Of a stretch of 42,227 nt of DNA, positions 23,295 to 24,713 are shown piece by piece. Where the stretch lies: positions 1 to 42,227 of the IMG/VR virus record IMGVR_UViG_3300047276_000213. One strand, given 5' to 3'. Position 1 is the stretch's first letter. Each line of letters starts with the position of its first letter. The translations under genes were made by a program, and so were the position numbers. The notes below the pieces were generated by a model. That model ran no database searches, was not told the DNA's origin, and saw nothing but the letters and a program-made list of their open reading frames with translations. The DNA is from a virus.

Positions 23295-23437
23295 TGAAAC
23301 CCGGTCTCTACGCCAACATCCACGCTAAACGTCTTCGCATCAAGAATGGTTCTGGTGAGAAGATGAGAAAGCCTGGATCGAGTGGTGCGCCGACTGCGGC
23401 ACAATTTAAGAAAGCAGCAAAGACTGCTAAGAAATAG
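23294..23437 (+). CDS. Small basic conserved phage head-region protein (47 aa)
   Basis: The 47-residue protein starts MKPGLYANIHAKRLRIKNGS and continues GEKMRKPGSSGAPTAAQFKK with a Lys/Ala end. Proteins of this type (GLYANIxAKRxRIxxGSGEKMRKPG) are widespread in phages close to capsid genes and remain uncharacterised. The high positive charge fits DNA or prohead interaction. It is too short for most gene callers; its coupling to the preceding frame and the recognised sequence make it credible. Confidence 0.75.
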   Translation: MKPGLYANIHAKRLRIKNGSGEKMRKPGSSGAPTAAQFKKAAKTAKK

Positions 23438-23476
23438 TTCCCGCTAACTCGGGCTGAAATCCACAGCAATGTGGTG

Positions 23477-23547
23477 TCTTCCATAGTCCAGTGGTCAGGA
23501 CATAGGCGACATGCCGAAGAGTTCGGGTTCGATTCCCGATGGAAGAA
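23477..23547 (+). tRNA. tRNA-like element with shortened anticodon loop
   Basis: Most of a tRNA cloverleaf is present. Acceptor arms TCTTCCA and TGGAAGA pair over seven bases; D-stem GTCC/GGAC encloses AGTGGTCA with A14, G18-G19 and A21; T-arm TCGGG-TTCGATT-CCCGA is perfect; the variable loop is AGAGT. The anticodon arm is odd: TAGGC and GCCGA pair at four of five positions around only five bases, GACAT, instead of seven, and lack the usual U33. No CCA is encoded. It may be a degenerate tRNA, or a tRNA-shaped RNA signal for processing between the small head genes and the capsid message. Confidence 0.65.
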
Positions 23548-23625
23548 TTGACTATTGGCCTTCTACGGAAGACAACCTTTAGTCATGACAGTCGGAGAGA
23601 CGACACAACAACAAACTTTAATGAA

Positions 23626-23663
23626 CACATGGTTGCTCATGTGATTCTCTAAGCGCTTAGAGA
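23626..23663 (+). promoter_or_regulatory. Two hairpins in the capsid gene leader
   Basis: CACATG/CATGTG (23626-23631, 23638-23643) and the perfect 18-base palindrome TCTCTAAGCGCTTAGAGA (23646-23663) stand side by side 30-60 bases before the capsid start. The capsid gene lacks a visible Shine-Dalgarno sequence, so these may stabilise or cut the message (T7 uses RNase III sites) or mark a promoter region. Confidence 0.5.
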
Positions 23664-23693: not shown

Positions 23694-24713
23694 GTGGCTA
23701 ACACTCTTGTTACTCCTGTAGGTCGCGTAAATAATACGTCGGCCACTCCTCTTGCTCTTGGTACTGCTTACGATACCAAGTATCAAACTTATCTTCGCCT
23801 GTTCTCGGGCGAGATGTTCAAAGCCTATGAATCGGCAACGATTGCAAAAGGCACTGTGCAGAGCCGTACCCTGAAAAATGGAAAGGCGATGCAGTTCATT
23901 TTTACGGGCCGTATGGAGGCTTCGTACCACGAACCCGGCACTCCGATCCTGGGTTCTGGCGATCCCCCGGTGGCTGAGAAGACCATCGTCTGTGACGACC
24001 TGCTGGTTTCCAGCGCGTTCGTCTATGACCTTGATGAGACTCTCGCCCACTACAGCCTGCGTTCTGAGATTGCCGCTAAGATCGGCCACGCTCTTGCTGA
24101 GGCTTACGACAAGAAGATCTTCCGTCAGATCGCTAAAGCTGCTCGTGAAGCTCACCCGATCACTGCTGCTCCTGGCCCTGAGCCCGGCGGTAGCATCATC
24201 CAACTGGGTGTGCAGAAAGAGTACGACGCTCAAGCTCTGGTGGATGCCTTCTTTGAAGCTGCTTCCATCATGGATGAAAAGAACCTGCCCAAGCAGGGTC
24301 GTATGGCTGTGCTGTCCCCTCGTCAGTACTACGCACTGGTGAGCCAGGTTGACAGCAACATCCTGAACCGTGACTTCGGCAACAACTCCGGTAGCCTGCA
24401 GTCCGGCGAAGGCCTGTATGAGATCGCTGGTATCCCCATCAAGCGTTCTAACAACCTGCCCTTCCTGGCTGGCACTGTTTCTGCTGTGAACGGTGAGAAC
24501 AACGATTACTCTGGTAACTTCAGTACCCACTGCGGTCTGATCTACCACAAAGATGCTGCTGGTGTGGTTGAGGCCATTGGTCCTCAAGTGCAGACCACTG
24601 GTTCTGACGTTCGCACCATGTATCAAGGTGACATCATCGTTGGTCGTCTTGCCATGGGTTGCGGCACCCTGAACCCTGCCTGCGCTATCGAGCTGCAGTC
24701 TGCACGTGCTTGA
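23694..24713 (+). CDS. Major capsid protein (gp10-like)
   Basis: The 339-residue protein forms the icosahedral shell with the HK97-type fold. T7-like landmarks include the N-terminal LYLKLFSGEMF-type segment (here YLRLFSGEMFKAYESA), LKNGKAMQFIFTGR, DDLLVSSAFVYDLDE, RMAVLSPRQYY and the C-terminal YQGDIIVGRLAMGCG. The start is GTG 23694. Codon choice shifts towards CTG, GGC and AAC compared with neighbours, as expected of a very highly expressed gene. No Shine-Dalgarno sequence is evident in the leader. Confidence 0.96.
   Translation: MANTLVTPVGRVNNTSATPLALGTAYDTKYQTYLRLFSGEMFKAYESATIAKGTVQSRTLKNGKAMQFIFTGRMEASYHEPGTPILGSGDPPVAEKTIVCDDLLVSSAFVYDLDETLAHYSLRSEIAAKIGHALAEAYDKKIFRQIAKAAREAHPITAAPGPEPGGSIIQLGVQKEYDAQALVDAFFEAASIMDEKNLPKQGRMAVLSPRQYYALVSQVDSNILNRDFGNNSGSLQSGEGLYEIAGIPIKRSNNLPFLAGTVSAVNGENNDYSGNFSTHCGLIYHKDAAGVVEAIGPQVQTTGSDVRTMYQGDIIVGRLAMGCGTLNPACAIELQSARA

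Follow-up and report, generated by a model that had tools for sequence, protein, structure and literature searches.

In viruses of ocean and lake cyanobacteria, a tRNA without its decoding end, or a hairpin X, stands exactly before the capsid gene, which suggests that the tRNA shape cuts out or marks the start of the capsid message rather than reading codons

In mitochondria, long transcripts are punctuated by tRNAs, which lie directly between the messages so that the downstream message starts at the tRNA 3' end. In bacteriophage T7, the capsid gene is preceded by a dedicated promoter, phi10. By contrast, the cyanopodovirus Syn5 has only two phage promoters, one of which serves more than 37 kb (PMC3950665); for this reason its capsid supply cannot hang on a phi10-like promoter and needs post-transcriptional tuning. 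Cyanobacteria encode both RNase P and RNase Z (PMC10989914). The RNase Z cleavage site is located just after the discriminator base (PMC8549757), and a U no more than 2 nt from this base stimulates the Bacillus subtilis enzyme approximately 200-fold (PMC10100781). Bacterial RNase P still acts on extensively truncated tRNAs (PMC4919922). Here, we analyzed the 42,227 nt of the virus record IMGVR_UViG_3300047276_000213 (IMG/VR), hereafter the window, which represents the genome of a T7-like cyanopodovirus whose + strand encodes a single-subunit RNA polymerase, a portal, a scaffold and the capsid protein, and which carries a tRNA-like element (TLS) between a small upstream gene and the capsid gene.

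The tRNA-like element and its relatives

The element was called at 23477-23547 (+) by both ARAGORN and Rfam, the latter matching RF00005 with 50.6 bits over model positions 1-71 (E 4.5e-8), and neither program found a second tRNA in the window. The initial annotation had described, at these very positions, a tRNA-shaped element with canonical acceptor, D and T arms, one mismatched pair in the anticodon stem and a 5-nt GACAT loop lacking U33, and this description proved exact. The parts of the element and the motif that follows it are listed below.

23477-23547, + strand: window-type TLS (ARAGORN, Rfam, fold, relatives)
23477-23483/23540-23546, + strand: acceptor arm TCTTCCA/TGGAAGA, 7 bp, read directly
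23486-23501, + strand: D arm GTCC-AGTGGTCA-GGAC, read directly
23503-23517, + strand: anticodon-like arm TAGGC-GACAT-GCCGA, with one A.G mismatch and a 5-nt loop without U33
23508-23512, + strand: GACAT, the five-base loop where the anticodon would be; relatives whose stems differ have GACAA
23518-23522, + strand: variable region AGAGT
23523-23539, + strand: T arm TCGGG-TTCGATT-CCCGA
23528-23534, + strand: T-loop TTCGATT, with 13 nt from its 3' end to the leader
23547, + strand: discriminator A
23548-23609, + strand: capsid-leader RNA motif (covariation in 70 relatives, fold), starting with UUG straight after the discriminator

When folded as a lone strand, the cloverleaf was both the minimum free energy and the centroid structure (-24.9 kcal/mol, z -2.4), with the border between T and acceptor stems moved by one pair and an anticodon stem of 3 bp. 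The match is far above chance level, and T-arm-like hairpins are otherwise rare in these genomes: only two, including the element's own, were present in the whole window. The acceptor, D and T arms are those of a functional elongator tRNA, but the 7-nt anticodon loop with U33 is replaced by the 5-nt GACAT; an alternative reading with a 7-nt loop, CGACAUG, places G at position 33 and leaves just three of five stem pairs. ARAGORN takes the loop in this register, and we rejected its label of a functional tRNA-Cys(aca) as an artefact of that choice. A blastn search of the 71 nt against phages for a tRNA donor or closest tRNA relative returned merely partial tRNA-type matches.

The position of the element relative to the capsid leader is fixed among relatives. 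In all 83 distinct T-loop elements the leader motif follows the discriminator with no spacer, so that, as in tRNA punctuation, the tRNA shape abuts the downstream message. The distance from the end of the T-loop to the leader start was 13 nt in 64 of them and 14 nt in the other 19, i.e., the length of a tRNA acceptor/T stack plus the discriminator. This ruler also holds for the Syn5 clade, whose leaders are different: the distance is mostly 13-14 nt, and in Syn5, P60, S-CBP42 and S-CBP2 the T-loop ends approximately 13 nt before a TTG. The elements therefore present what RNase Z and RNase P look for in a substrate, a T-loop on a 12-bp acceptor/T stack with an unpaired discriminator (one set of the stem counts behind this covers elements chosen because they have a stem). 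Further, as in RNase Z substrates, no CCA is encoded, and every aligned leader places a U right behind the discriminator. Of 74 unique elements, 41 had an acceptor 5' strand that pairs along its full length; dinucleotide-preserving shuffles gave 9.8 on average and never more than 16.

Other parts of the cloverleaf are dispensable at this locus, where a graded reduction was observed from full tRNA-Gly and tRNA-Trp through D-armless tRNA-Gly and 5-nt-loop forms to minihelices. At the upper end, intact tRNA-Gly(TCC) and tRNA-Trp occupy the capsid-leader site in related phages, and NATL1A-7 carries a complete tRNA-Gly, annotated as such, ahead of the leader. At the lower end, the minihelices of P-SSP7, P-SSP2, S-SBP1, S-TIP37 and S-CBP3 retain just the acceptor and T arm, to which a single small hairpin is added in some cases; the element of Syn5 is likewise reduced to a minihelix. 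The D and anticodon arms get lost among relatives, the T arm never. An intact seven-base loop in related phages had been named in the initial annotation as an observation that would speak against selection for tRNA shape. Such loops do occur, but they belong to other tRNA identities and stand in series with armless forms, and therefore support the idea.

D-armless tRNA-Gly(TCC)-like genes with an intact 7-nt anticodon loop were seen at eight loci (L095, L111, L114, L130, L131, L166, L172 and L278). They resemble the D-armless tRNAs of mitochondria and could still be charged or used.

The 5-nt loop is neither an error nor recent. The identical arm, GGCGACATGCC, is present in 11 further contigs, which disposes of missing bases as a sequencing error, and the 5' half of the window element was found in 18 contigs. 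Moreover, the loop GACAW (GACAT or GACAA) is carried on three different stems, GGC/GCC, GCG/CGC and GCC/GGC, the last of which has an alternative fold. Together, conservation and the different stems exclude a fresh deletion in a tRNA, which had been offered as the other explanation of the short loop. Nor do the arms all drift without constraint, as those of a decaying pseudogene would: T arm and spacing are kept across the reduced forms while the loop stems are altered pairwise. For this reason, and because of the replacements described below, decay of a tRNA gene was rejected.

Hairpin X and the exchange of elements at one site

The remaining phages carry a non-tRNA hairpin at the same place, hereafter X, with the sequence CACCTCAGAGTCGGA or a close variant. 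It has a covarying stem of approximately 9 bp and a nearly invariant 15-nt loop, CACCTC[AG][GA][AT]GT[CA]GGA, whose end lies 11 nt from the leader in 75 cases and 12 nt in 8. Examples are L083:4812-4848 (S-SRP01), L084, L086, L087, L219 and L224, in addition to 89 leaders in viral contigs; S-CBP4 is an X carrier as well. X had no relevant match among the 4227 Rfam models at E values up to 10 and, bar one weak match, found only cyanophage or marine matches in the phage collection. X may be a T-loop mimic, in which an inner CC/GG pair would give a 12-bp-like length; however, the equivalent of A58 is U in 17 of 83 unique loops.

In an unbiased recount, restricted to loci found by capsid protein or leader sequence and thus leaving out the scan selected by T arm, 50 leaders had a TLS, 89 had X and none had neither, six being too short to judge. 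Among isolates with this leader, six carry a TLS and five carry X. Comparison of the window with L023 revealed a direct swap, in which the flanks match on both sides (...CCACAGCAATGTGGT / element / TTGACTATTGGCC...) and one has a TLS and the other X. In L211:6628-6720, the discriminator marks a junction: up to this base the sequence is a window-type TLS and the flank upstream of it, and beyond it follow a leader and a capsid gene of the S-CBP2 type, the capsid being 76% identical to that of S-CBP2 and 55% to that of the window. L211 is thus a cassette transfer between lineages. It follows from the swaps and from the L211 junction that the element moves as a cassette, is found ahead of two distinct leaders and is exchangeable for a non-tRNA, and therefore that its conserved function cannot be decoding. 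What is conserved is the site and not the tRNA. Both this alternation and the structured leader go beyond what the initial annotation described.

The capsid leader and its surroundings

The leader has the consensus TTGRC...GCC-hairpin-GAYANC... and begins directly at the base after the discriminator. The following parts were distinguished.

23549-23554 with 23580-23585, + strand: P1
About 23559-23572, + strand: P2, a UACG-type hairpin
23591-23604, + strand: 3' hairpin

P1 and P2 covary in 70 diverse leaders, with 95.6% of cells paired and a covariation score of 0.45; shuffles scored 0.20, and sliding the partner strand never gave more than 0.095. In the same leaders T1 is invariant and T2 is kept in more than 90%. 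A search of 4227 Rfam models at E values up to 10 gave no relevant match to the leader, only the tRNA itself being matched, and the leader is a newly recognized structured RNA that is absent from Rfam. A similar GCC-hairpin-GAYANC core seems to be present in P-SCSP1d, a roseophage and pelagiphages; in pelagiphages and P-RSP2, which have a leader-like core, inspection by eye revealed neither a TLS nor X. In cellular genomes the leader was found in six contigs, one from a Prochlorococcus assembly and the others from marine metagenome-assembled genomes, and these are probably phage contigs.

The neighborhood of element and leader contains the following features.

23295-23438, + strand: small basic open reading frame (ORF; MKPGLYANIHAKRLRIK...), the last one 5' of the element, read from the sequence
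23646-23663, + strand: perfect palindrome TCTCTAAGCGCTTAGAGA, lying after the leader and ahead of the capsid start; other palindromes, likewise perfect, occupy this place in relatives
23694-24713, + strand: major capsid protein gene with a GTG start (PHROG 267 major head protein, E 3e-78), its message downstream of the TLS

The capsid protein is 91% identical to the capsid of Synechococcus phages S-SRP01 and DSL-LC07, and 146 nt separate the TLS from its GTG (23694). No Syn5-type promoter was found in the window ahead of the capsid gene at up to 3 mismatches, nor was any repeated promoter-like family found in the window.

The DNA of the small basic ORF is conserved in cyano- and pelagiphages (blastn matches across 23297-23438). 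Two short hairpins, CCCGCTAACTCGGG and CCACAGCAATGTGG, occupy 23440-23474 immediately 5' of the element and are present in TLS and X carriers alike. A small conserved ORF (...YRGVxY...) upstream of minihelix elements has its stop codon within their 5' acceptor strand (e.g., L093, L126, L178, L145 and L303); by mechanical ORF calls, this stop ends 31-44 nt before the leader in several of these loci. Ribosomes terminating at that stop would cover the minihelix, and a coupling of upstream translation to processing is possible.

A perfect palindrome of at least 10 nt was observed between leader and capsid start in 154 of 184 distinct loci, compared to 19 of 184 after shuffling. The sequences are diverse (TAAGCGCTTA, CAAACGTTTG, TTCAGCTGAA, TAGGATCCTA and others) and the center is always self-complementary. 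Since a hairpin would need no self-complementary center, the palindrome may serve in RNA kissing dimers or as a symmetric site in the DNA.

Possible roles and comparison with known systems

We consider that the element is probably an exapted tRNA gene which serves in cis as punctuation in a long late transcript and is cut by tRNA-processing enzymes of the host. Its acceptor-T half would fold like a tRNA and be recognized by host tRNA 3'-end processing, with RNase Z cutting after the discriminator and RNase P possibly cutting the 5' side. Such a cut would free a capsid mRNA with its 5' end at the start of the P1/P2 leader, leaving the closing helix almost terminal, where it would stabilize or tune the most needed late message. 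If nothing counts but the acceptor-T stack and how far it lies from the cut, the D and anticodon arms would be free to shrink, change or vanish. In other phages X would do the same job by a mechanism other than tRNA-type cutting. More tentatively, the two could be viewed as fillings of a one-slot cassette for capsid mRNA maturation, either a host-cut tRNA remnant or the approximately 36-nt X (a new recognition element or a self-cleaving RNA), both delivering the same leader with a defined 5' end and replacing the T7 capsid promoter.

A 3' cut by RNase Z is favored because the leader starts exactly after the discriminator and a U follows it, and because the upstream stop sits inside the element at several minihelix loci, where a 5' cut would remove it. 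The initial annotation had suggested that the tRNA shape is under selection as a processing point ahead of the capsid message, recognized by RNase P or the CCA enzyme. Its first part fits the position, the fixed ruler, the T arm that is never lost and the swaps, from which we infer the cleavage itself; RNase P is a possible agent that fits less well than a 3' cut, and no support was found for the CCA enzyme. That RNase P acts alone, cutting only the 5' side and leaving the TLS on the capsid mRNA as a base-paired 5' cap, appears improbable. In its favor, RNase E would be held off by a 5' monophosphate that is base-paired. Strong truncation of a tRNA does not keep bacterial RNase P from accepting it (PMC4919922), but the fixed point is the 3' end of the element and not its 5' end, and a 5' cut at those minihelix loci would yield a non-stop message.

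Several observations weigh against cleavage of a tRNA-like fold. Taken singly, acceptor helices beat shuffles at p≤0.05 in just 30 of 74 elements (second scoring), the L027 minihelix folds barely better than shuffles (z -1.0), the first acceptor pair is mismatched in some window-type copies, and about one third of T-loops have a G at position 55 (TGCRA), unlike tRNA. The UU that opens the leader is conserved in X carriers as well and cannot be credited to RNase Z alone. This phage may also have a private promoter that went unrecognized. Above all, X has no clear T-loop, so RNase P and RNase Z cannot explain it, and if both elements do one job, this need not be tRNA-type cleavage; X must either act in another way or have the role only partly in common with the TLS. 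No argument weighs more in favor of TLS and X being alternative 5' domains of one uncut capsid-leader RNA, acting as a ribosome road-block, a decay barrier or a site for a host or phage protein, with the T-loop or X-loop contacting leader or protein. In line with this, X and TLS are interchangeable at fixed distances, the almost invariant loop of X on its covarying stem looks recognized, and the leader itself is structured. However, a mere barrier could do without a T-loop that always lies 12 bp away and without a discriminator left unpaired, and a dedicated contact with the leader is unlikely since the same TLS precedes two different leaders; we regard an uncut domain as unlikely, though well worth keeping in view. 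Least probable is an insertion hot spot for ordinary phage tRNA genes, some functional (Gly, Trp) and others, like the window copy, decaying. The intact tRNA-Gly(TCC) and tRNA-Trp at this site would suit it, but copies without a usable anticodon are widespread, with T arm, acceptor and spacing all preserved in them. Moreover, distant genera have retained minihelices that lack an anticodon arm, the stems of the loop are altered pairwise, and a non-tRNA element substitutes at the same base.

If cleavage by host enzymes holds, this would be tRNA punctuation of a protein-coding phage transcript, and it would offer an answer to how few-promoter cyanopodoviruses, abundant marine viruses that include the model phages P-SSP7 and Syn5, set capsid expression. 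A single locus would then display an evolutionary series that starts with a working tRNA and ends with a bare acceptor-T minihelix, showing directly which part of a tRNA is preserved by selection once decoding no longer matters. The finding also cautions that among the annotated 'tRNA genes' of phages there may be processing signals. Further, two structured RNAs absent from Rfam, the capsid leader and hairpin X, are exposed. We found no prior description of the element in the literature searched, which took in few subscription journals.

The region upstream of T7 gene 10 (capsid), with its phi10 promoter, occupies the same genome position and sets capsid expression in T7-like phages, but does so by a dedicated promoter, for which no counterpart was found in the window; Syn5 has only two phage promoters (PMC3950665). 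C4 antisense RNA, M3 RNA and T4 tRNA precursors are likewise phage RNAs processed by host tRNA enzymes (PMC11143913); they are small RNAs or real tRNAs and not a cis element of a capsid message, and C4 RNA, which is in Rfam (RF01695), was not matched. RNase P and RNase Z cut the mascRNA and menRNA of MALAT1 and MEN-beta (PMC4919922), which share with the phage element a non-decoding tRNA-like fold with an intact acceptor-T half, which is thought here to set an RNA end. They form the 3' end of long non-coding RNAs, whereas the phage element stands at the 5' end of a coding message in a bacterial virus, and no homology is expected. Finally, compared to mitochondrial tRNA punctuation, the phage element may be no tRNA any more (5-nt loops, armless minihelices), concerns one gene of a DNA phage, alternates with a non-tRNA hairpin and would be cut by a step that we infer; the likeness lies in a tRNA-shaped RNA placed directly between the messages of a long transcript, at whose 3' end the downstream message starts.
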